Source of the DNA: Bacteroidaceae bacterium | Lineage (GTDB): Bacteria; Bacteroidota; Bacteroidia; Bacteroidales; Bacteroidaceae | Length of the DNA stretch: 34,514 bases | Assembly (NCBI GenBank): GCA_024401275.1 | Contig: JAKSLJ010000033.1 | Location: forward strand, 1 to 34,514 | Direction of reading: 5' to 3' | Part shown: one piece after another, positions 3,489-34,446 of the stretch | Layout: each line of letters starts with the position of its first letter | Numbering within the stretch: position 1 is the stretch's first letter | Notes under the pieces: generated by a model | Seen by the model: only the letters and a program-made list of their open reading frames with translations | Told to the model about the DNA's origin: nothing | Databases searched by the model: none | Position numbers and translations under genes: made by a program

Positions 3489-4652
3489 CTACATTTTAGA
3501 ACCGACTCTTCTGAGTTGTAGCTGGCGGATGAAGTAGGCTACGAGATAGAAGAGGAATTGTGCGCAGAGTGCAGCGAGATAATGGTGCACCTGGTCAAGG
3601 CTGCACCCCATTTCGTTCAAACGGACGAAGGCGCGGGCAGCTGGTGTGCTTGGTAGGAACCATGCCACATACTCCCAAAATTCCGGTATAGACGCTTCCG
3701 GCCATGACACGCCGACGAGGAAAAGCATCGGCAGAGAAGAGAATACGATGCAAATCATACAGTCCTCACGACGACGGAAGAACGTACTGATGAACATGGC
3801 AAAGGTTAGCATTGCGCAGAGCATCGGCACAAGGAGAACGCAGAAGTCGTGGAACTGGATATGCTGAGTGAAGCCGAAGATCTTAGGCGTTACAAGCAGC
3901 ACATACGTTGCCATGACCAGATAGACGGCACCGTAAGAAAGGAACACTCCCCAGAAGTCCTTCAGCATAGAACCATAGTCGGAAGGTTGGCGGCGCATGG
4001 CTGGCGGCACGTTTCGCGTCTTTCTGCCACCAAGAATCTGGAGCTGACGGTTCCATCCGGCACGCATAGAAATGCCGAGAATGAGCGTCTGCTGCAAGAT
4101 GAGCACGATGACCGCCTGGAGAAGGAAGTTTCCGTAGCCTCCGGTGGTGTTGTACATGCTGTGCTCCTCCATCTTTATCGATGCTGCCTGCAACTGATCC
4201 TCGCGGGCGGTCTTGTTCTGCGCCAACTTAATCTGAATCTTTGAGTTCTGTTCCAGATTGAGGTTGGTGAGCGTCATATAGATGGTCTTATAGTAAAGCA
4301 TGAAGCTCATGTCGATGTAGGCGCTGATGGTGGTCTGCTCCATGCGGTTTGTCTTTGTGGCAAAGTCTGAAGGGAAATAGACTATTCCGAACGCCTTCTG
4401 CTCGGCAAGCATACGCTCAGCCTCCTTCATGTCGCCACAGAGAGCGGCAACCTCAAGGTCGGGAGTGCCGTCAATCTTCTGTATAAACTGCCGCGAATTG
4501 CTGCTGTGCGACATATCAACCACGCACACAGGTACCTCTCTCACCACTTCGTTCGTGTAGATCCACGAGTAGAGGAGAGGATATATCAGCGGTACTATTA
4601 CGGAAAGCAACAGTACGCCTGAGTCGGTGAATATGGACTTTAGGGTTTTCAT
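3489..4652 (-). CDS. ABC-2 type permease (second of the efflux operon)
   Basis: 387 residues, ABC2_membrane_3-type architecture: one N-terminal membrane segment (VLLLSVIVPLIYPLLYSWIY, about 13-32), a large periplasmic domain of about 150 residues (starting VREVPVCVVDMSHSSNSRQF), then five or so membrane segments. Together with the upstream permease it would form the membrane channel of a YbhS/YbhR-like exporter that works with HlyD and TolC partners to move a substrate across both membranes. Last gene of the operon. The 101-nt spacer to the previous gene consists of a GAATGCAG inverted repeat element. No nucleotide-binding protein is encoded nearby. Confidence 0.88.
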   Translation of the reverse strand: MKTLKSIFTDSGVLLLSVIVPLIYPLLYSWIYTNEVVREVPVCVVDMSHSSNSRQFIQKIDGTPDLEVAALCGDMKEAERMLAEQKAFGIVYFPSDFATKTNRMEQTTISAYIDMSFMLYYKTIYMTLTNLNLEQNSKIQIKLAQNKTAREDQLQAASIKMEEHSMYNTTGGYGNFLLQAVIVLILQQTLILGISMRAGWNRQLQILGGRKTRNVPPAMRRQPSDYGSMLKDFWGVFLSYGAVYLVMATYVLLVTPKIFGFTQHIQFHDFCVLLVPMLCAMLTFAMFISTFFRRREDCMICIVFSSLPMLFLVGVSWPEASIPEFWEYVAWFLPSTPAARAFVRLNEMGCSLDQVHHYLAALCAQFLFYLVAYFIRQLQLRRVGSKM

Positions 4653-4753
4653 TAATGCTGAATGCAGAATTCAGAATGCAGAATTAGCTTGCACTTTGAC
4701 TTTATTTCGGGAGTAGAGAATTCTGCATTCTGCATTCAGAATTCTGCATTCCC
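4653..4753. repeat. GAATGCAG-type inverted repeat element, intergenic copy
   Basis: The whole spacer between the two permease genes is one inverted repeat. The left arm (about 4654-4685) and right arm (about 4717-4751) are built from GAATGCAGAATTC-like units separated by a loop of about 30 nt. A second copy, with the same arm composition but a different loop, lies inside mnmE at 22597-22692. In transcript form it would fold into a long hairpin between two cotranscribed genes. Confidence 0.85.
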
Positions 4754-5863
4754 TTAGGCTTCGTAATCAAACTTCGCGTAGGCGCGCTTGATGTTCCAAG
4801 TGACTGCAAGTGGGAAAGCGGCGAAGATAATCATCGCAGAAATCCACATCCATGAGTATTCCAGTGGATAGCCATGGAATATGTTCAGCTGATATGCCAT
4901 GAAGTAATGTCGAAGCGGGAAGATGTACGACAGGCTCTGTATCATTGGGTGCATGGAGGCTATAGGATAAGCCGTGCCCGACATGGAGAAGTTCAGCACG
5001 CTCCAGAGCGAGCAGATACTGAGTGCCATGCGGAAGTGAGGGAAGAGTCCGAAGAGTAGCACCGCTCCGCCCTGTGCCGCAAAGACCATCAGTATGGAGA
5101 GTCCGACGATGACCAGCCAGCTGCCCTTGTGCGGGAAGTCAAGATAGCCGTAGAAGTATATCTGACAGCAGAGCATTATCACGATGTAGATGGCAGCGAT
5201 AGGCAGCAGTTTCTTTGTCATGACAAGGAGGATGCTGTTTTTGTTTTTCCTTAAAGTTTCTTTTGCCGTGCCTTCGCGAAGCTCTGAACCGAGAGAGTAG
5301 ATGCTCATCATGCCCACAAACATAATGATGATGCCCGGAATAATCATCGTGGAAAGATAGGCATTATAGTTCGTCCATGGGTTGCCGAGCATGTGAGCGT
5401 CAAGCAAAACTGGCTGAAGGAATGTCTCTATCTGATGGTCGGAAGCTCCTTTAGCACGCAGCGTAGCCTGACCGACAGCTGCCTTGGCGAGAGTGGCAAT
5501 GGTGCGGAGGTCCTTGTAGGCAAGTGTTCCTGCCGTGAAGAAGGCTGAGTTATAATATATATGTATAGTAGGCTGACGTGCTGACATCACCTTACTGCTC
5601 ATGCCTTCCGGGAAGACTATGTAGCCATAGATCTCCGTGTTCTCAAGTGCCTCGCGAGCTTCTGCCTCAGTGCGATAGACCTCCTTCACCGTCGTTGACT
5701 GGAACGCATCGACTCTACGGATCAGCGTGCGGGTCGTGGAGGAATTGTCATAGTCCACCACTCCTACAGGCAGTTCCATAGGAAGTCCCTCCGTCATCAA
5801 GGATGTAAAGAACAGGATGACGAAGACAGGGGCTATAATATATAGGAATATCTTTATACGCAT
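4754..5863 (-). CDS. ABC-2 type permease (first of the efflux operon)
   Basis: 369 residues, the same architecture as its neighbour: N-terminal membrane segment (IFLYIIAPVFVILFFTSLM), periplasmic domain (ELPVGVVDYDNSSTTRTLIR to about residue 165), and about five C-terminal membrane helices. The start leaves almost no cytoplasmic N-terminus, shorter than in typical members. However, a TGA occurs in frame just upstream and the ATG lies only 7 nt after the HlyD stop, so no longer form is available. Probably forms a heterodimer with the downstream permease. Substrate unknown (lipid, drug or peptide export are all possible). Confidence 0.88.
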   Translation of the reverse strand: MRIKIFLYIIAPVFVILFFTSLMTEGLPMELPVGVVDYDNSSTTRTLIRRVDAFQSTTVKEVYRTEAEAREALENTEIYGYIVFPEGMSSKVMSARQPTIHIYYNSAFFTAGTLAYKDLRTIATLAKAAVGQATLRAKGASDHQIETFLQPVLLDAHMLGNPWTNYNAYLSTMIIPGIIIMFVGMMSIYSLGSELREGTAKETLRKNKNSILLVMTKKLLPIAAIYIVIMLCCQIYFYGYLDFPHKGSWLVIVGLSILMVFAAQGGAVLLFGLFPHFRMALSICSLWSVLNFSMSGTAYPIASMHPMIQSLSYIFPLRHYFMAYQLNIFHGYPLEYSWMWISAMIIFAAFPLAVTWNIKRAYAKFDYEA

Positions 5864-11025: not shown

Positions 11026-12087
11026 ATGGCAAAGATTAGAATCAAGGATATCGCAGAGCAGGCTGGAGTGAGCGTCGGCACCGTTGACCGTGTGCTTCAC
11101 AACCGCCCAAACGTATCTCCTTCAGCCCGAAAGAAGGTGGAAGATGTACTGGAAAGCATCAACTACAAACCTAATGCATATGCTTCTGCACTTGCATATA
11201 ATAGGGATTATACTTTTTATGTCATCATGCCGCAGCATACCTCCGAGGCTTATTGGGCAGAAATTGAGGAAGGCATCCACAAGGCTTGCGAGCATAGAGA
11301 CGACTTCAACGTGAAGGCAGAGATTCTGCACTACGAGCGATACAATGACGATGATTTCATGAAGCAGTGCCATGTCTGTCTGGAAATGCAGCCGGATGCA
11401 GTGGTACTCGTGCCTACGCATTCTGACGTAACGAAGATGTTCACCGACAAACTTCATGAGCTCAATGTTCCGCTCATGCTTCTTGACTCTTATATGCCGG
11501 AACTCTCACCACTATCTTTCTTTGGTCAGGATTCCTTCTCCAGCGGATATTTTGCTGCCAAGATGCTGATGCTGCTCGCTGCCAACGACAAGCAGATAAT
11601 GCTGATGAAGCAGATGAAGGATGGCAGAGTATCCAGCAAGCAGCAGGAAAACCGTGAGATAGGTTTCCGTAACTATATGCGAGGACACTTCCCTGAAGTG
11701 GAAATTCTTGAACTTGATCTTCCGCTGGACATGAAAAAGGAAGGCTATTCCAATCTTCTTGAGAAGTTCTTCGACGAGCATCCTAATGTTCACCACTGTA
11801 TAACACTGGCTTCAAAAGCGTATCTCGTGGCAGAATTCCTTCTCTATACAAAGCGTACTGATGTTAAGATCATGGGTTATGACATGGTGCCTAAGAATGC
11901 GGAATGTCTCCGTAAGGGCTCTATCTCGTTCCTCATTGCGCAGCACGCCTTCATGCAGGGCTTCCATTGCATTGACACTCTCGTGAAGAGCATCGTGCTT
12001 AAAAGAGAAATTAAGCCGGTAAACTACATGCCAATCGAGCTCCTCACAAAGGAAAATGTTGATTTCTACAACAGAACGCAGATATAA
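11026..12087 (+). CDS. LacI-family transcriptional regulator
   Basis: 353 residues. An N-terminal LacI helix-turn-helix (IRIKDIAEQAGVSVGTVDRV, residues 4-23, with the hinge motif KKVEDVLESINYKPNAYASAL) is followed by a periplasmic-binding-protein-like sugar domain (Peripla_BP_4 type, containing GYFAAKMLMLL and KIMGYDMVPKNAECLRKGSI). It lies 41 nt upstream of altronate dehydratase in the same direction, so it probably senses a hexuronate intermediate and controls hexuronate use. Effector and operator are inferred only; I see no clear operator palindrome. Confidence 0.92.
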   Translation: MAKIRIKDIAEQAGVSVGTVDRVLHNRPNVSPSARKKVEDVLESINYKPNAYASALAYNRDYTFYVIMPQHTSEAYWAEIEEGIHKACEHRDDFNVKAEILHYERYNDDDFMKQCHVCLEMQPDAVVLVPTHSDVTKMFTDKLHELNVPLMLLDSYMPELSPLSFFGQDSFSSGYFAAKMLMLLAANDKQIMLMKQMKDGRVSSKQQENREIGFRNYMRGHFPEVEILELDLPLDMKKEGYSNLLEKFFDEHPNVHHCITLASKAYLVAEFLLYTKRTDVKIMGYDMVPKNAECLRKGSISFLIAQHAFMQGFHCIDTLVKSIVLKREIKPVNYMPIELLTKENVDFYNRTQI

Positions 12088-12118
12088 CTAAAAACTAAAA
12101 ACCAAAACCCCAAAACCA
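12088..12118 (+). repeat. A-rich tandem leader repeat upstream of uxaA
   Basis: CTAAAAACTAAAAACC followed by AAAACCCCAAAACC fills the spacer before uxaA. The same ACTAAAAACC units precede the rubredoxin-like gene at 34451. It may provide an unstructured A-rich translation-initiation region. Confidence 0.5.
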
Positions 12119-16998: not shown

Positions 16999-17038
16999 AA
17001 ATAGTAAATAGTAAATCCGTAAATTGTAAATGTAAATG
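16999..17038 (+). repeat. GTAAAT tandem leader repeat overlapping a start codon
   Basis: AAATAGTAAATAGTAAATCC followed by GTAAATTGTAAATGTAAATG forms short degenerate tandem units, and the last unit supplies the ATG of the zinc-ribbon gene. The same GTAAATTGTAAAT unit precedes the CoA transferase gene (211-240). Confidence 0.55.
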
Positions 17039-17809
17039 AGATATTGCAGATTCTGTGGCACTCAAGTGCCAGACGATTCCATATTCTGTCCACGTTGCGG
17101 AAAGGAACTCGCACCGCCTGAATCGTCAAATCAAAAAATCGCCCCATCGCCTAATGATGACGACGAGAATGAACCAAAGAAGAAATCCCTTTGGGGCTGC
17201 ACCATCTTCTTCATACTCTTTGCAGGAGCTTGTGCTGTCGGAGTCTTCATATACAACTCATTCTTCACTGGACGTGAGAATCCGCTTATCCCACAAGATG
17301 AGGATTCCATAGCCGTTGTGGATGAGCAGGAGACAGCCCAGCCCGTCAGCGAAGACCTGCAAGGCGATGACCAGCCTATGGATGGCGAAAGCTTGTTGCA
17401 GCTTCGAGTACAGAAGATCTACGACGATGTGCTCTTCAATAGCAATAGGAACGGATGTGTCCAGCAATATTGCACGGATGCCTTGAAGGTGCTTATCAGC
17501 AAGGCTGAGGCTACGGGCGAGTATTGGATAGACTATGACTTCTGGACATACTCCAACGATTGCGACAGACCTGCCATTGAGTCCGTTAAGGTAGAAACCT
17601 ATTCCGGTTATATGGCAGATGTGAAGGTCGCCGTCCGTCCTTATGCCGACGGCCAGGCGGTGAATGTCATCGTGCTGAAGATGGAAAGGGAAAACGGTCA
17701 ATGGCTCATTGATGACTTCCTCAAGAACGGAAAGAGCGTGCGAATGCTCGCCCGCCGTGCCATTGACGAGAACTCCGCCCGATACGATGTCGCAGACACC
17801 CTATATTAA
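17036..17809 (+). CDS. Zinc-ribbon membrane protein with DUF3828-like C-terminal domain
   Basis: 257 residues. An N-terminal zinc ribbon (CRFCGTQVPDDSIFCPRCGK, residues 4-23, four Cys) is followed by an acidic linker. Then comes one membrane segment (CTIFFILFAGACAVGVFIY, about 59-77), a second acidic linker, and an extracytoplasmic domain. The latter (RVQKIYDDVLF to NGQWLIDDFLKNGKSVRMLA) resembles the DUF3828/NTF2-like domains that end in a conserved W-x-I-D-D. The ribbon would lie in the cytoplasm and the domain in the periplasm. Function unknown; the layout suggests a sensor or scaffold. Confidence 0.85.
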   Translation: MRYCRFCGTQVPDDSIFCPRCGKELAPPESSNQKIAPSPNDDDENEPKKKSLWGCTIFFILFAGACAVGVFIYNSFFTGRENPLIPQDEDSIAVVDEQETAQPVSEDLQGDDQPMDGESLLQLRVQKIYDDVLFNSNRNGCVQQYCTDALKVLISKAEATGEYWIDYDFWTYSNDCDRPAIESVKVETYSGYMADVKVAVRPYADGQAVNVIVLKMERENGQWLIDDFLKNGKSVRMLARRAIDENSARYDVADTLY

Positions 17810-17896
17810 TTGAAAAATGAGAATTGATAATGGACAATTAAGCTGTGCGACAAATAATTATCAATTATCCATTATCAATTATCCATTAAATCAAAG
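17810..17896 (+). repeat. AATTGATAAT-type inverted repeat element upstream of the OmpA-domain gene
   Basis: A left arm (AATTGATAATGGACAATTA, about 17820-17840) pairs with TAATTATCAATTATCCATTA (about 17856 onward). The right side also contains a 14-bp direct repeat (ATTATCAATTATCC). The whole lies in the leader of the next gene. Similar units (GAGAATTGATAAT) occur before the nucleotidyltransferase-fold gene at 31242. Confidence 0.7.
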
Positions 17897-18515: not shown

Positions 18516-18589
18516 GCTGGATTCGTCTAGTGGTCCAGGACGCCTGCCTCTCACGCAGGAGATCACGGGTTCGACTCCCGTATCCAGTA
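18516..18589 (+). tRNA. tRNA-Glu, anticodon CTC
   Basis: The cloverleaf can be drawn by hand. Acceptor GCTGGAT pairs with ATCCAGT (first pair G-U), and the D-arm is GTCTAGTGGTCCAGGAC. The anticodon stem is CCTGC/GCAGG with loop CTCTCAC, giving anticodon CTC for GAG codons. The T-arm is ACGGG/CCCGT with loop TTCGACT, and the discriminator is A. CCA is not encoded. The D-arm and T-arm sequences are typical of bacterial tRNA-Glu. Confidence 0.93.
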
Positions 18590-21321: not shown

Positions 21322-21400
21322 TTATTTTCCCACGCAGAAGTGGCTGAAGATGTTGCCAAGGACTTCGTCAGTGCTTATTTGTCCACCGGTGATGTCGTCG
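21322..21400 (-). pseudogene. Duplicated 3' end of mnmE (remnant)
   Basis: On the minus strand this encodes DDITGGQISTDEVLGNIFSH then FCVGK and a stop. That is 23 of 25 residues identical to the end of the intact mnmE gene (22289-23704), with about 85% DNA identity over about 75 nt; the stop is TAA here and TAG there. The frame can be followed weakly upstream to about 21425 (HALVDVHHIMA) and then meets a stop. Downstream flanks (GTGAA, ATAGC, TATTTCC) are also partly alike. The DKNYY gene lies between the two copies. Confidence 0.8.
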
Positions 21401-22288: not shown

Positions 22289-23704
22289 CTATTTTCCCAC
22301 GCAGAAATGGCTGAAGATATTGCCTAAAACCTCGTCTGTGCTTATCTCTCCGCCAGTGATGTCGGCAAGGTGCGAGAGACATAGGCGAAGGTCTTCGGAG
22401 AGCAGATCTGTAGGAATGCCCATGTTCATGCCGGAGAGAACTCGCTGAAGGGCTTCTTTAGCCTTGAGGAGTGCTTCGTAGTGGCGTGCGGAGGTTACGA
22501 TAATGTCGTTCTCCTTTATCTCTGGAATGTCGGCAGCAGTAACGAAAGCGTCTTCAAGAAGGTCGATGTTAGTGCCTTCCTTGGCGGAAAGTTCTATTAA
22601 TGCAGAATGCTGAATGCAGGATGCAGAATTAGGTTGTGTGTTATTGTCTATTTTGGAATTGTTCTGCATTCTGCATTCTGCATTCTGCATTCCCAACCTG
22701 TCTATTTTATTGCGGACAATGATGAGTTTCTGCGTAGGTTTTATCTCCGATTTTATTTCTGAAAGTGATTCGGTGGTAGGGTCTTCGTCAATGAGCCAAA
22801 GAACGATGGCTGCCTCGGAGAGTTTCTTCCTGGTGCGCTCTATGCCTATCTGCTCTACGGCATCGTCGGTCTCGCGAAGACCGGCTGTATCGATGAAACG
22901 GAAGTCAATGCCGCGGAGATTAATGGTGTCTTCAATGACATCGCGAGTGGTGCCGTGGATGTCGCTGACGATGGCTTTGTCCTCATGAAGCAGTCTGTTG
23001 AGGAGCGTTGACTTGCCGACATTGGTCTTGCCGACGATTGCCACAGGCACGCCGTGCTTCAACGCTTGTCCGGTCTTGAAAGAATTGGCAAGTCGGGAGA
23101 TATGGTCGTAAATGGTCTGCGAGAGCTGAAGAAGCTCTGTGCGATCGGCAAACTCAAGGTCTTCATGGTCGGAGAAGTCAAGCTCAAGTTCCATGAGCGT
23201 AGTAAGATGAAGCAGTTTCTCGCGCAGCTGAGCGAGTTCAGAAGAGAAATTGCCGCGCAACTGCGACATTGCCATGCGATGAGTAGCGGCATTTGTAGAT
23301 GCTATAACATCTGCCACAGCCTCAGCCTGACTGAGATCCATCTTACCATTGAGGAAAGCCCTTTGAGTATATTCACCCGGAAGAGCCTGTCGGCAACCTC
23401 CGTTGATAAGCGTCTGAAGGATAGTGGTGATGACATAAGGGCTGGCGTGACAGGAAATCTCTACGGAGTTTTCGCCTGTATAAGATTGCGGTGCACGGAA
23501 GACGGAAACGAGGACATCGTCCACGGTCTCTTCGCCGTTCATGAAGCGGCAGTAATGGAGCGACTGCCCCTTGGCTTCGGCAAGCGACTTGCCCTTACCA
23601 AAAGGTACACAGAGTTTGTCGGCGATGCCGATGGCATCAGGACCGGAAACGCGGATTACGGCTATTGCTCCGCCCTTGGCGGTTGAAAGTGCACAGATAT
23701 TCAA
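22289..23704 (-). CDS. mnmE: tRNA modification GTPase MnmE
   Basis: 471 residues. With MnmG it adds the carboxymethylaminomethyl group at U34 of certain tRNAs. An N-terminal folate-binding domain (ALSTAKGGAIAVIRVSGP) and helical domain are followed by the G domain: P-loop VAIVGKTNVGKSTLLN (about 221-236), DTAGLRETDD, NKID (about 333-336) and SAKEG. The C-terminal FCVGK carries the conserved Cys. Between NKID and SAKEG lie about 30 extra residues (GMQNAECRMQNNSKI to CIQHSALI) encoded by a GAATGCAG repeat element. The only usable start is TTG at 23704; a stop lies upstream in frame and no ATG is available. This start is a few residues shorter than usual. Confidence 0.95.
   Translation of the reverse strand: MNICALSTAKGGAIAVIRVSGPDAIGIADKLCVPFGKGKSLAEAKGQSLHYCRFMNGEETVDDVLVSVFRAPQSYTGENSVEISCHASPYVITTILQTLINGGCRQALPGEYTQRAFLNGKMDLSQAEAVADVIASTNAATHRMAMSQLRGNFSSELAQLREKLLHLTTLMELELDFSDHEDLEFADRTELLQLSQTIYDHISRLANSFKTGQALKHGVPVAIVGKTNVGKSTLLNRLLHEDKAIVSDIHGTTRDVIEDTINLRGIDFRFIDTAGLRETDDAVEQIGIERTRKKLSEAAIVLWLIDEDPTTESLSEIKSEIKPTQKLIIVRNKIDRLGMQNAECRMQNNSKIDNNTQPNSASCIQHSALIELSAKEGTNIDLLEDAFVTAADIPEIKENDIIVTSARHYEALLKAKEALQRVLSGMNMGIPTDLLSEDLRLCLSHLADITGGEISTDEVLGNIFSHFCVGK
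22597..22692. repeat. GAATGCAG-type inverted repeat element inside mnmE
   Basis: Left arm AATGCAGAATGCTGAATGC and following units (22598-22630) pair with right-arm TTCTGCATTCTGCATTCTGC units (22661-22690) around a loop of about 30 nt. The arms match the intergenic copy at 4653-4753. It is translated in frame as part of the G domain of MnmE, between the G4 and G5 motifs. Confidence 0.88.
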
Positions 23705-23758: not shown

Positions 23759-24658
23759 TTACGAATTTATCAGCCTCGCCATCATAACGGCTGAAAGGGC
23801 GGCGGTTTCGGTGCGAAGGCGTGAGGTGCCGAGAGAGATTGAATGATAACCTTTAGACAGGGCAAGCTCCACTTCTTCGTGATGGAAGTCGCCTTCGGGA
23901 CCTATGAGTATGACGACATTGGAACCCCCTCTAACTCCCCCGCAAGGGGGAGGACAATCGCGGCAAGTGGGGCTTTCCTTTGCTTCGCTATTGGAGGATA
24001 GCAGGGTAAAGAGATGCTCTTTGGGGATGTCGTCGTAGCAATGAGCTATGCAGTAGATAGTATTGGGGATGCCCGATGAAGATTCATCGGGAACGGTAGC
24101 TGAGCCAAGCGGAGATGCGCTTGGAACGGTGGTTGCTTGGGCAGTCGCCGAGATCTGCGACTGCTGTTCGCGCTGCTTGAGGGTGGGATTATGGGCTTCA
24201 ATGAAGTCGGAGAAGGACTGCATATCGTTGACTATCGGCATCCATGCCTTGCGGCTCTGCTTAACAGCGCCAAGCACTTTCGTCTCAATGCGGTCAATGC
24301 GCAAGTTGCGACGCTCGGAGAGTCGGCAGTCAAGGAAGGAGAGTTCGTCGAAGCCAATCTCGGTAGCCTTTTCAGCAAACCACTCTATGCGGTCCATCAT
24401 CTTCGTCGGAGCCATGGCAAGATGTATTCTACCGCTCCACTCACGCTCTTGTGGAAGGGATTCTATGATGCGATAGTTGCAATGCTTCTTGGTAGCCATC
24501 GTGATCTCGGCACGATGGAAAGTGCCTTTGCCGTCAATGAGAAAAACCTCGTCGCCAGCCTGCAGTCGCAAAACGCTGACAGCATGCTTAGCCTCATCCT
24601 CGGGCAGTTCCGTACTGCTGAGGGCATCGGGAGCATAAAAGTATCGTTCTTCTTTCAT
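23759..24658 (-). CDS. rsmE: 16S rRNA m3U1498 methyltransferase RsmE, with repeat-derived insertions
   Basis: 299 residues from the ATG at 24658 (MKEERYFYAPDAL); the longer frame from 24691 overlaps the porin gene. The N-terminal PUA-like domain (AKHAVSVLRLQAGDEVFLID) is followed by the SPOUT knot (WFAEKATEIGFDEL, VVILIGPEGDFHHEEVELAL, LGTSRLRTETAALSAV). It methylates N3 of U1498 in 16S rRNA using S-adenosylmethionine. The family is normally about 240-250 residues. Here two extra segments are present: residues of about 174-199 (ATTVPSASPLGSATVPDESS), encoded by two hairpin-AACGGTGG units, and about 235-245 (CPPPCGGVRGG), encoded by a GC palindrome. Catalytic motifs are intact. Starts 2 nt after the porin stop, so cotranscribed with it. 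Confidence 0.93.
   Translation of the reverse strand: MKEERYFYAPDALSSTELPEDEAKHAVSVLRLQAGDEVFLIDGKGTFHRAEITMATKKHCNYRIIESLPQEREWSGRIHLAMAPTKMMDRIEWFAEKATEIGFDELSFLDCRLSERRNLRIDRIETKVLGAVKQSRKAWMPIVNDMQSFSDFIEAHNPTLKQREQQSQISATAQATTVPSASPLGSATVPDESSSGIPNTIYCIAHCYDDIPKEHLFTLLSSNSEAKESPTCRDCPPPCGGVRGGSNVVILIGPEGDFHHEEVELALSKGYHSISLGTSRLRTETAALSAVMMARLINS
23924..23953. repeat. GC-rich palindromic element (copy 4), inside rsmE
   Basis: ACCCCCTCTAACTCCCCC followed by GCAAGGGGGAGG matches the intergenic copies at 241-275 and 34363-34400. It is translated on the minus strand as CPPPCGGVRGG just before the GPEG knot motif of RsmE. Confidence 0.88.
24071..24132. repeat. Two tandem hairpin-AACGGTGG units inside rsmE
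   Basis: Unit 1: CCCGATGAA/TTCATCGGG (24072-24091, 2-nt loop) plus AACGGTAG. Unit 2: CCAAGCG/CGCTTGG (24105-24124) plus AACGGTGG. The stems differ in sequence but each unit has the same layout and tail as the intergenic copies at 25948, 26911 and 26952. Confidence 0.85.
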
Positions 24659-24660
24659 TC

Positions 24661-25935
24661 TTAAAATGCAATCTGGAACTGTGTAACCCATGCGTTGCTT
24701 ATCTTGCCGAGCTTAGGGTTAGTGTGCACGAACTGCGATGCTATGCGACACTGCTTGTAAAGCCAATACTGGAGACCGAGAGTGAGAGTGTTTGTCTCGT
24801 CGTTCTTTATCTTCTTGAGATAATCGTAGTCGGCAACGAGGTCGAGTTTCTTTGGAATGAGATGATACTCAAGGTCAACATACGCGCCTTGCATATCTGC
24901 CTTTGCGTCCTTACCCCACATATATTCGCTGCGGAGATAGAGCGGCTTTCCTTTCCATTCCACACCAAGGGCATAGCGCTGACGATGGTAGTTCTCGCCT
25001 TGCTTTATCATCGGCGCACCATCTTCGCCAATGAACTTCGCATTCTCAGCCTGAGAAGTGCCGAGGGCGAAAGAGCCGGAGAAGAGGAGTGAAGACGTAG
25101 GCATATAGTTGAGCATACCTATGACAGACTTCTGGTTGTTGTTTTCCTTGACGCTCATTCCTGTGCCGTTGAAGATACCAATCTGATAGTTCAGTAGTGG
25201 ACGACCGTTCTTAGGGAGGAGGTCACCGGTAAGCATGATTCCTGCATCACGAGCCACGTGGTTTCCGACAGCAGGGTCAGTGGCAATACCGGTCATGTAA
25301 AGCACGGAATTGTCGAAGCCGATGTTGCTGAGGATTGTCGGAGGATAGATATTCTCAAGAGTATAAGGCTGCTTGAACTGACCGACACGAACCTTCAGTG
25401 CTGACGAGAAAGCATACTGTGCATAGTACTCATGAAGCTTTGCGGCAGCAGCATCAAACATAACGAAGAACGAGAGTTCCTTGGTAAGCTCTGCGTTTGC
25501 CATGAGAATCAGTCGGGTAATGTCGAAGGCATTAGTGGTTTGGCCGTTGGTATGCTTGTAGGTATAGCCTGTCTGAGCATAGCCGAAGAGGGTAACTTTT
25601 GACGGACCGATAATTATGTTTGCCGGCATGACAGGCTGCTCGCCATCTATGCTGCGACGGGCAGCAAGTTCTTCGTCGGAATAGAGGGTGGTGGTGAGCT
25701 TAACAGGGATCTCCTTTGTGGCGGCTTCTGTAGGGGCGGTGATGGAACCAGAAGCTGACGCTTCAGGCACTGGGGCTGGAGCGTTTTCTTTCTCTACGGT
25801 GATGGCGGTGGGGGCTTTCTCAACGGCGATGGTGGTTGCCGATGTAAGCGTTGGAACGCCATCGGTGGGTTCTTCTATGGCAAAGGCTGTCAGCGAAGAA
25901 AGGAGGGCGATTATTGTGAAGAGTAGTTTTTGCAT
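24661..25935 (-). CDS. Outer-membrane porin, phosphate-selective porin O/P type
   Basis: 424 residues. The signal peptide MQKLLFTIIALLSSLTAFA is followed by a low-complexity Ala/Pro/Thr/Val linker of about 60 residues. The beta-barrel begins KVTLFGYAQTGYTYKHTNGQ, continues with LSFFVMFDAAAAKLHEYYAQ and VRVGQFKQPYTLENIYPPTI, and ends with ASQFVHTNPKLGKISNAWVTQFQIAF (a typical C-terminal Phe). This layout fits Porin_O_P outer-membrane proteins. Substrate unknown; the family was named for phosphate/pyrophosphate porins of Pseudomonas, but specificity cannot be carried over. The linker DNA resembles the hairpin-GGAACGGTGG repeats (see findings). Confidence 0.87.
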   Translation of the reverse strand: MQKLLFTIIALLSSLTAFAIEEPTDGVPTLTSATTIAVEKAPTAITVEKENAPAPVPEASASGSITAPTEAATKEIPVKLTTTLYSDEELAARRSIDGEQPVMPANIIIGPSKVTLFGYAQTGYTYKHTNGQTTNAFDITRLILMANAELTKELSFFVMFDAAAAKLHEYYAQYAFSSALKVRVGQFKQPYTLENIYPPTILSNIGFDNSVLYMTGIATDPAVGNHVARDAGIMLTGDLLPKNGRPLLNYQIGIFNGTGMSVKENNNQKSVIGMLNYMPTSSLLFSGSFALGTSQAENAKFIGEDGAPMIKQGENYHRQRYALGVEWKGKPLYLRSEYMWGKDAKADMQGAYVDLEYHLIPKKLDLVADYDYLKKIKNDETNTLTLGLQYWLYKQCRIASQFVHTNPKLGKISNAWVTQFQIAF

Positions 25936-25947
25936 ATTGGTGGGAAG

Positions 25948-25975
25948 CCCGAGGGAAAAGCCTCGGGAACGGTGG
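25948..25975. repeat. Hairpin-AACGGTGG element between porin and BASS genes
   Basis: CCCGAGG/CCTCGGG (25948-25967, loop GAAAAG) is followed by AACGGTGG and a T-run on the plus strand. It lies 12 nt upstream of the porin ATG. Confidence 0.75.
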
Positions 25976-26879: not shown

Positions 26880-26982
26880 TGCGGAAAACCGCAGGGAATA
26901 GTCTTATGGACCGAAGCGGACGCTTCGGGAACGGTGGCTAATCTTCGCTCACGCTCTAAGAGCGCGAGAACGGAACGGTGGG
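26880..26982. repeat. Cluster of three hairpin elements, the last overlapping the end of manA
   Basis: Unit 1: TGCGG/CCGCA (26880-26893, loop AAAA) plus GGGAATAGTC. Unit 2: CCGAAGCG/CGCTTCGG (26911-26928, 2-nt loop) plus GAACGGTGG. Unit 3: CGCTC/GAGCG (26952-26964) with an outer CTC/GAG pairing, then GGAACGGTGG at 26972-26981. Unit 3 supplies the last codons and the stop of manA. Confidence 0.85.
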
Positions 26983-30111: not shown

Positions 30112-31242
30112 CTATAGTTTCTTCAGTATATTTTTCTGAATGTTAATCTTCATCAGAGCTAAAAGGAGTTTGATACATTCTTTTGGGAATATTCGGAAAT
30201 GCCTGAGATAAGCCTTATAGAAAAGCAGTAGGTTGAATATGCTCTTTATGGATTTTCCGTCTCCGATGTTAAATTCCTTTATGTCATGTTGCAGCAGAAT
30301 GTCCAGCACTTTCGGAGCATTGTTGCTGTACTTCTTTTCATAGAGCAGAACATTCTCGGCTGGTATTCCCATACATTCAACTGCCATCTGAGTGAAAATC
30401 TTCCAAGTGTTTAGAAAACCGAAATCCTTTAAGTATTGCTCAGTCTTTTTCGCAGAGGATATCACATCCATTGTTTCCGTTATCCTTCGCGTCATTTGCA
30501 GCCAGTCGCAAACCTGCCTGAAAAGAATGCCGTATCCCACAAAGTGGCGGAACATGTGGAGGAAAGTGAAAACCGTGTTGAGTTCTATTGGCAGAAGTGC
30601 CACCTCGGTGCCATTAATGCTTATTCTTGGGCATTCCTGGTACTTTTCGGCAAGGCAAGGCAGAACTGCTTCTTGAAACGCTTTGTCATTGCTGCTTGGC
30701 AGTATGGCTGCAAACTTATGCAACTCAAGCGTTACGCCATGGCACGACAGCATACCGTGTACCATATCCTCATGAATCCAGTCGCCGACAAGTCCCGCAT
30801 TCTTCAGACATTCTTGCGCCTTGTAGAAGTTGTCTTTGCCGACGAGCAAGTCAATATCGCCAGGCGAGCGATACAATGGGGTAGGGTAGAACGATGCGCA
30901 CCCCTGTCCTTTAAGCAGTATGGAATTTATGCCAGCTTCGTTGAGCGTTGACACGATATCGCTGACAGCTTTGTTCACTTCTTCATTGCGTGCGACGAGT
31001 TTTCGTGTCTGACCGTAAAACTCCAACTTTGCGTCGAGTGGCAGTTGGGATGCGAGCGTCGGATTATTCTCAATGCCTCCCCACACAGTGCCAAGCACGG
31101 TCTGATTGAATAGCTCTTCCATGAGCGGCATCCAGTCAATGTGGGAGAAGTCAATGCCTGCTTCCGCCTTGTCGGTCAACGCCAAGCGTAGCAACTGAAT
31201 AATATGTTTCTGAATTTCTGTCACGATATTATCAATTCTCAA
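30112..31242 (-). CDS. Nucleotidyltransferase-fold protein (NTP_transf_5-like)
   Basis: 376 residues from TTG at 31242, or 370 from GTG at 31224; no ATG start is available. The TTG lies within the AATTGAGAATTGATAAT repeat, so the GTG just after it may be the true start. The core SILLKGQGCASFYPTPLYRS followed by PGDIDLLVG (about 113-141) has the G-x-x-x-x-x-x-R-x-x-x-D-I-D-x-L layout of the nucleotidyltransferase superfamily. HGVTLELHKF supplies the third acidic site. Such proteins often sit in surface polysaccharide loci, but their substrate is unknown. Confidence 0.85.
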   Translation of the reverse strand: MRIDNIVTEIQKHIIQLLRLALTDKAEAGIDFSHIDWMPLMEELFNQTVLGTVWGGIENNPTLASQLPLDAKLEFYGQTRKLVARNEEVNKAVSDIVSTLNEAGINSILLKGQGCASFYPTPLYRSPGDIDLLVGKDNFYKAQECLKNAGLVGDWIHEDMVHGMLSCHGVTLELHKFAAILPSSNDKAFQEAVLPCLAEKYQECPRISINGTEVALLPIELNTVFTFLHMFRHFVGYGILFRQVCDWLQMTRRITETMDVISSAKKTEQYLKDFGFLNTWKIFTQMAVECMGIPAENVLLYEKKYSNNAPKVLDILLQHDIKEFNIGDGKSIKSIFNLLLFYKAYLRHFRIFPKECIKLLLALMKINIQKNILKKL

Positions 31243-31262
31243 TTCTCAATTTTTAATTGAAA
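31225..31262 (-). repeat. AATTGAGAATTGA tandem leader repeat
   Basis: On the minus strand, AATTAAAAATTGAGAATTGA followed by GAATTGATAAT fills the space between ugd and the next gene. It shares the GAGAATTGATAAT unit with 17819-17832. Confidence 0.55.
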
Positions 31263-34362: not shown

Positions 34363-34400
34363 GACCCCCTCCGACTCCCCCACAGGGGGGAGGGGAAAAA
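34363..34400. repeat. GC-rich palindromic element, copy 5
   Basis: GACCCCCTCCGACTCCCCC, then ACAGGGGGGAGGGG and an A-run. It is nearly the same as the reverse strand of 241-275. Here it would form a hairpin in the 5' leader of the rubredoxin-like gene rather than after a gene. Confidence 0.8.
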
Positions 34401-34401
34401 A

Positions 34402-34446
34402 CCAAAACATTAAACTAAAAACTTAAAACTAAAAACCAAAAAACAA
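34402..34446 (+). repeat. ACTAAAAACC tandem leader repeat
   Basis: Repeated ACTTAAAACTAAAAACC units end 4 nt before the start codon, with the same units as the uxaA leader (12088-12118). Confidence 0.55.

Follow-up and report, generated by a model that had tools for sequence, protein, structure and literature searches.

A dispersed palindromic repeat lying in frame within mnmE and other genes of a Bacteroidaceae genome

The palindromic element in mnmE and its intergenic copy

The analysed window (34,514 nt; contig JAKSLJ010000033.1 of a Bacteroidaceae bacterium) contains an open reading frame (ORF) on the minus strand (22289–23704) that we assign to mnmE (trmE), which encodes a tRNA modification GTPase, on the basis of the ORF and its domain matches (TrmE_N, MMR_HSR1 and MnmE_helical). 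A palindromic element within this gene (22598–22692, minus strand) encodes GMQNAECRMQNNSKIDNNTQPNSASCIQHSAL (approximately 31 residues), placed between NKID (G4) and SAK (G5) of MnmE. The two arms (22599–22628 and 22662–22691) are 93% complementary, are separated by 33 nt and consist of 7-nt units (GAATGCA and variants). The open ORF and the complementary arms bear out the proposal of the initial annotation that an inverted-repeat element lies in frame inside mnmE; the repeated units that it described are also present, but the unit is 7 nt long, not 8. Folded as RNA, the element reached −41.9 kcal/mol (z = −7.57), a value that none of 200 shuffled sequences equalled. The arm end and core-like stretch TGCAGAATTAGGTTGTGT (22622–22639, plus strand) has three mismatches to TGCAGAATTAGGCTGCGC. 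Across the window, GAATGCAGAAT matched 15 times at ≤1 mismatch (1.13 expected), a count reached by none of 100 shuffles. A second copy of the element (4653–4753; element matches at 4653–4751) occupies the entire gap between two minus-strand ORFs, adjoining on one side an ORF at 3489–4652, whose start codon runs to 4652, and on the other an ORF at 4754–5863, whose stop codon begins at 4754. The earlier identification of this intergenic element with that in mnmE holds. Among Rfam families searched over the window at the gathering score, none matched the element and the only hit was a tRNA (18516–18589). Separately, roughly the final 25 codons of mnmE (22290–22364) are partially duplicated about 1 kb away, at 21323–21397, with 85% identity.

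Copies within and between genes

The mnmE site is one among dozens in the genome, and related repeats are found in other species of the genus. In the source genome (G000; 3.20 Mb, 71 contigs, 91.45% complete), GAATGCAGAATGCAGAAT matched 182 + 229 = 411 times at ≤3 mismatches, versus 1 + 1 for the reversed pattern. At ≤1 mismatch it occurred in 12 of 299 genus genomes including this one, which had 93 + 136 matches; the next (G170) had 10. The 216.5 kb fetched around matches held 57 clusters with 343 matches; as this covers 343 of the 411 and was begun from the strongest copies, the site list is incomplete. Palindromic clusters within ORFs numbered 19, in 16 ORFs (S2–S5, S8, S12–S17, S19, S22, S24–S26, S31, S32 and S37). 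Nine arrays formed N-terminal, signal-peptide-like segments (S10, S21, S29, S36, S41, S48 and S53–S55), with S56 in addition at a contig end; six lay in the linker before a YNLAGQRV...GIVIKNGK-type C-terminal motif (S30, S33, S34, S46, S47 and S52); and five were found elsewhere in ORFs (S6 (LGT), S9 (GH3), S27, S44 (PrmC) and S57 (GSCFA)). Sixteen clusters fell outside these classes and appeared intergenic, the ORF ends on either side looking complete. One candidate, S42, is a single three-mismatch match and was set aside as chance. The genome search thus returned many further copies both in and between genes, as an insertion would predict. Single hairpins in genes span 82–113 nt, and the PrmC array is long and has no hairpin. 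Many intergenic copies start a few bases past the preceding stop codon (for example, L178 2357–2438, L209 2492–2617 and L187 948–993).

The hundreds of unit copies, their species-specific dialects and the hairpins between genes, one of which fills a whole intergenic gap, are also what functional DNA signals such as uptake sequences or terminator hairpins might look like, with the copies in genes simply being tolerated. Uptake sequences are tolerated within genes of other bacteria. We regard this explanation as very unlikely, given that the copies add tens of codons and do not look like products of point mutation, that the arrays differ greatly in length and the arms in sequence, and that no recogniser is known. 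Searches of plasmid and phage records for the element, and of viral contigs for arm plus core, gave no matches; the heptamer triplet occurred in 15 viral-contig stretches, some of them palindromic with another loop. Two viral contigs (L366 and L370) carry GAATGCA palindromes with a different loop, several within 12–15 kb.

Family matches identified 15 of the 16 host ORFs of palindromic clusters: MnmE, RdgB/HAM1, ClpB, MetH, Lon, an RluA-subfamily protein, MurF, YggS, MutS2, Glyco_transf_9, Sel1, WbqC, a protein with AMP-binding plus acyltransferase domains, isoleucine–tRNA ligase (ileS) and ABC-F; the remaining ORF had no Pfam match. When the insert was included, RdgB, MetH, Lon, MurF, YggS, MutS2, IleS and ABC-F, as well as PrmC, scored above at least one NCBIfam cut-off of the same name. 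ClpB scored below its cut-off (1145 versus 1232.1 bits), its open frame also being without the first 118 model positions, as did the RluA-subfamily protein (137.2 versus 192.7). The Glyco_transf_9 protein was below the cut-offs of heptosyltransferase models and the AMP-binding protein below those of all models shown, and the WbqC protein had no NCBIfam match.

In-gene clusters were picked for spanning an open frame, so their open state is no independent evidence. Over the span of the element, one of the six frames is open in nine clusters, two in five, three in three and four in two. In the nine with a single open frame (9/19), this is the gene's own frame, and a shared codon phase is forced there. 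This bears on the idea that the inserts are removed or skipped, through RNA excision or translational bypass, so that the protein is normal. The strong hairpin would suit such a process, and bypassed palindromes in yeast mitochondrial genes are mentioned in the available text of PMC6649704. Yet skipping would not require an insert to preserve the frame, whereas the sole open frame is that of the gene in those nine clusters (chosen, as stated, by open frame), and no gene split by an out-of-frame copy was seen when the flanking ORF ends at the 16 intergenic-looking sites were read by eye, without homology. We consider removal or bypass extremely improbable.

Because the arms look the same on either strand, the strand has to be assigned by the core. 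Of the 14 clusters with a clear core (≤2 mismatches), 13 carry it on the AQPN-reading strand and one, S26, the other way round; all 21 core copies on the AQPN strand are in one codon phase. The MnmE cluster (S2) has its core on the AQPN strand with three mismatches. At the same number of mismatches, the core is probably the other way round in S31, S32 and one S14 copy; in S22 and S37 no core stands out clearly. As a control, 5 of 2,000 random 95-mers from the window reached ≤2 mismatches and 32 reached ≤3. A common strand for all in-gene copies, first read from the arms, is wrong for at least S26 when judged by the core.

Empty sites, the MnmE loop and the repeat family across the genus

MetH (1,379 amino acids in an open frame in this genome) provides empty sites. 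Ten other MetH loci were taken, of which nine were usable (all except L346). A 61-residue stretch between RPMLER and QLVNVIGG is absent in 9/9 aligned relatives, and 77 residues follow DTLN, versus 20 in all eight relatives measured there (L341 left out). Two further MetH inserts lie in linkers that are variable among the relatives too.

The corresponding comparison for MnmE drew on 60 relatives, all of which matched the MnmE query (several only through a related GTPase), and on 80 named MnmE loci from a GTDB scan; 30 + 80 loci were kept, and 103 of these 110 were parsed (seven failed). The stretch from NKxD to SAK+3 has 47 residues here versus a median of 34 across the parsed loci, a rough value because in several rows parsing began too far upstream or broke off too soon. 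The element itself does encode the roughly 30 residues that it was said to add, but the net gain at MnmE is smaller. The peptide of the ECRMQNA type was found only in our genome, none of the other 102 parsed loci (7/110 unparsed) carrying these residues, as predicted for an insertion. Three MnmE chains with solved structures in the alignment also have a shorter G4–G5 stretch. The nearest full-length MnmE sequences are approximately 62–65% identical, the nearest named ones being from Prevotella and other Bacteroidales, and the comparison yielded no close relative whose MnmE site is empty; the assembly of G096 (86% complete), which carries the element, has only related GTPases and no MnmE. For want of such a relative, insertion and replacement of an existing loop are indistinguishable at this site. 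The lineage-limited insertion proposed initially is supported in that the peptide is restricted to this genome among the parsed loci; as an insertion confined to the lineage it could not be proved, with the nearest MnmE at the identity given and G096 offering no empty-site DNA.

The MnmE loop is naturally variable, which makes a local origin of the element there possible. Arrays of period 7 occur in this loop in 7 of the 103 loci including our own, each with 0/200 single-letter shuffles as good: GAATGCA in our genome, CAAACCT in L054 and L117, CTCACCT in L060 and, judged by peptide alone, CTCACCT-like in L145, AATGAAG-like in L066 and AATTGTC-like in L166. Of the MnmE loci from nine additional genomes with the core or the heptamer, none of the seven shown has such a peptide (L329 and L334 left out). 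Two Prevotella records have in-frame CAAACCT arrays at a second MnmE site, before DEVLVSVFRAP (L117 3188–3218 and L145 3148–3287).

The core AATTRGGCTGCGC was found as exact copies in 40 of 298 genus genomes including our own (23 copies here and 26 in G231, with six control matches in total) and in 33 of 301 family genomes (five control matches). Heptamers that differ between species, among them AATTCAT, AATGCAT, AATTGAG, AATGAAG and AATTAAG, lie beside many of the core copies. Some matches to AATTRGGCTGCGC, such as those in L219 and L232, fall in normal coding sequence; in family genus g54 the core belongs to another kind of repeat unit, which we did not count as this element. A G096 glycosyltransferase, the same one as in our genome, has the core and spacer at the same site, but with arms reading NAKCVMR. 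A linker of MutY holds a core-containing NWAAQNN insert in four species (L224, L229, L231 and L298) and CTCACCT- or CTCTCTC-type arrays instead in others. In a syntenic intergenic site with approximately 90% identical flanks (L178 2357–2438 versus L238), G000 and G096 both carry the element, with opposite core orientation and a different loop, differences that allow for rearrangement in place.

These data bear on whether the element moves at all. Heptamer microsatellites could have expanded where they stand, by slippage during replication in loops tolerant of length change, hairpins arising later by template switching. The strict 7-nt period in genus loci fits such growth (five sets of loci, selected for MnmE or MutY without regard to repeats, gave 3, 13, 6, 3 and 0 runs at lag 7 and none at lags 4–6 or 8–9), as do the different heptamers held by the same MnmE and MutY loops in different species and the long PrmC array without a hairpin. 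Slippage in place does not, however, account for the core and spacer that unrelated sites have in common, which imply that sequence was copied from place to place, nor for the core-bearing palindromes in MetH at points where the aligned relatives have nothing. We judge it unlikely that slippage alone produced the inserts.

Arm sequence, interpretation and comparison with known repeats

Repeated GAATGCA is free of stop codons on both strands, so that both hairpin arms are translatable (ECRMQNA/CILHSAF). A palindrome needs both strands, and only a heptamer open on both can therefore sit whole in a gene. Among 15 other heptamers checked, only CTCTCTC is also stop-free both ways, and each of the 12 AAT-type units meets a stop on one strand or both; the property is shared by 592 of 1,172 cyclic heptamer classes and hence is not rare in general. 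A sister family in the same genome, with the same core and AATTGAT-type arms, has no spanning ORF of ≥90 amino acids at any of its seven core sites.

The two readings of the arm differ in character, with mean Kyte–Doolittle values of +1.6 for CILHSAF and −1.3 for MQNAECR. All nine N-terminal arrays read CILHSAF and seven of eight internal or linker arrays read MQNAECR (Fisher P = 4 × 10−4, post hoc and on hand-entered counts; S6 and S27, with ambiguous orientation, and S56, at a contig end, were omitted). On reading by eye, the nine N-terminal arrays are followed by an AQ-ending motif in six cases, a lipobox-like cysteine in two and ASAK in one. The AQ-ending motifs may relate to the Bacteroidetes Q-rule. 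Hosts of these arrays include PorV-like, SusD-like, CE2-like, FGE-sulfatase/PEGA and DUF6175 proteins and a protein that matches TPR weakly; Pfam gave no match for three of the nine. From sequence, the N-terminal CILHSAF arrays are predicted to be signal-peptide-like N termini.

Taken as a whole, we think it probable that the segment at 22598–22692 is a copy of a dispersed palindromic repeat resembling MITEs or REPs, which survives in genes as an in-frame, putatively translated insert. Such an element would have arms of 7-nt units flanking a GC-rich core, which comprises AATTRGGCTGCGC and a short spacer, and the common core and spacer point to mobility, by which copies may arise at many places. 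Most insertions into genes should be lost; the survivors would be those that keep the frame, read without stops and fall in a loop, linker or signal peptide able to tolerate extra residues. Because GAATGCA is open both ways, whole palindromes could persist in genes, whereas the AATTGAT-type sister has been seen only between genes. The arm units would change from species to species, probably by slippage or by copying from one repeat to another. More tentatively, and with rather less confidence, this repeat could be a genus-wide mobile palindromic cassette with a conserved core and species-specific arms that change in concert. Its stop-free arms would make it nearly blind to frame and strand, with one strand supplying polar loops and linkers and the other hydrophobic signal-peptide cores, and it might repeatedly supply essential-type genes with new protein parts.

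In its behaviour the element is like the Rickettsia palindromic elements (RPEs), the parallel drawn at the outset, and in its structure like known heptameric repeats (according to the parts of PMC4679880 and PMC4692102 available). RPEs, of about 150 bp (Ogata et al. 2000, 2002, via the available text of the review PMC10969869), are there described as short palindromes in many copies, in and outside unrelated genes, in frame and with a similar peptide per copy. Here too we find a palindrome predicted to fold into a stable hairpin, many dispersed copies, and insertion into unrelated genes whose frames remain open and which share a similar peptide. The element differs in phylum, in having species-differing heptamer arms around a common core, in the single arrays that also form signal-peptide-like N termini and, against the length given in that text, in its hairpins of 82–113 nt. 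We do not file it as an RPE, as the named MnmE sequences closest to ours come from Prevotella and other Bacteroidales.

The tandem 7-nt units are those of heptameric simple sequence repeats. TAACTGA heptamers have been reported from Beggiatoaceae, cyanobacteria and five Bacteroidetes (MacGregor 2015, PMC4679880, available in part). They are likewise dispersed 7-nt direct repeats, some in Bacteroidetes and a few inside ORFs, but in the main genome studied are mostly intergenic or upstream of start codons, with one inverted repeat, and the available text does not describe in-frame protein inserts with a common core. The GGGAATC and GGGGA(C/T)T repeats of Xanthomonas and Nostoc also form dispersed heptameric arrays but, in the text available, are of the G-quadruplex type and under-represented in coding regions (PMC4692102). 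PARCELs resemble the element as apparently mobile repeat coding DNA with dyad symmetry; as presented in the accessible part of PMC2996958, they differ in being 25-residue tandem protein domains in ORFs without assigned functions rather than additions to housekeeping genes. The coding palindromes of Nematomorpha mitochondria are inverted repeats translated within genes, but those described in the available text of PMC6649704 are perfect repeats in which both arms encode conserved host residues, with no single dispersed element. Searches with topic and sequence words found no literature on these repeats in Prevotella or Bacteroidales among open-licence papers, which is weak evidence of absence.

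Protein-coding palindromes are mainly a Rickettsia subject in the available part of the review PMC10969869. The present sites suggest that repeat DNA scattered in a genome can become part of working proteins; Bacteroidales cases in genes such as ileS, lon, clpB and metH, with species-differing arms and the stop-bearing sister family as a natural control, would allow tests of the route by which repeat DNA comes into proteins, of the filter on survivors and of whether new signal peptides arise from it.

The window contains other short repeats. A second, shorter palindromic repeat with the end TCGGGAACGGT lies at 24067–24097, 25943–25973 and 26905–26935, elsewhere in our genome at C45:6776–6806 and C9:31088–31118, and also at L339 4077–4107. 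It is read in frame as a TVPEASASG-like peptide in the ORF at 23759–24691, in C45 and in MetH of G096; five exact copies were present in the DNA fetched from our genome and none in 232,865 bases taken from 59 loci of other genomes. AATTTAC, a third unit resembling a heptamer, occurs at 210–238 and 17003–17031, which are 93% complementary to each other. AATTGAT/AATTATC-type 7-nt arrays lie at 17808–17886, with a hairpin (17819–17839/17863–17883), and at 31228–31251, and AACTAAA-like 7-nt arrays lie at 12086–12118 and 34399–34445.
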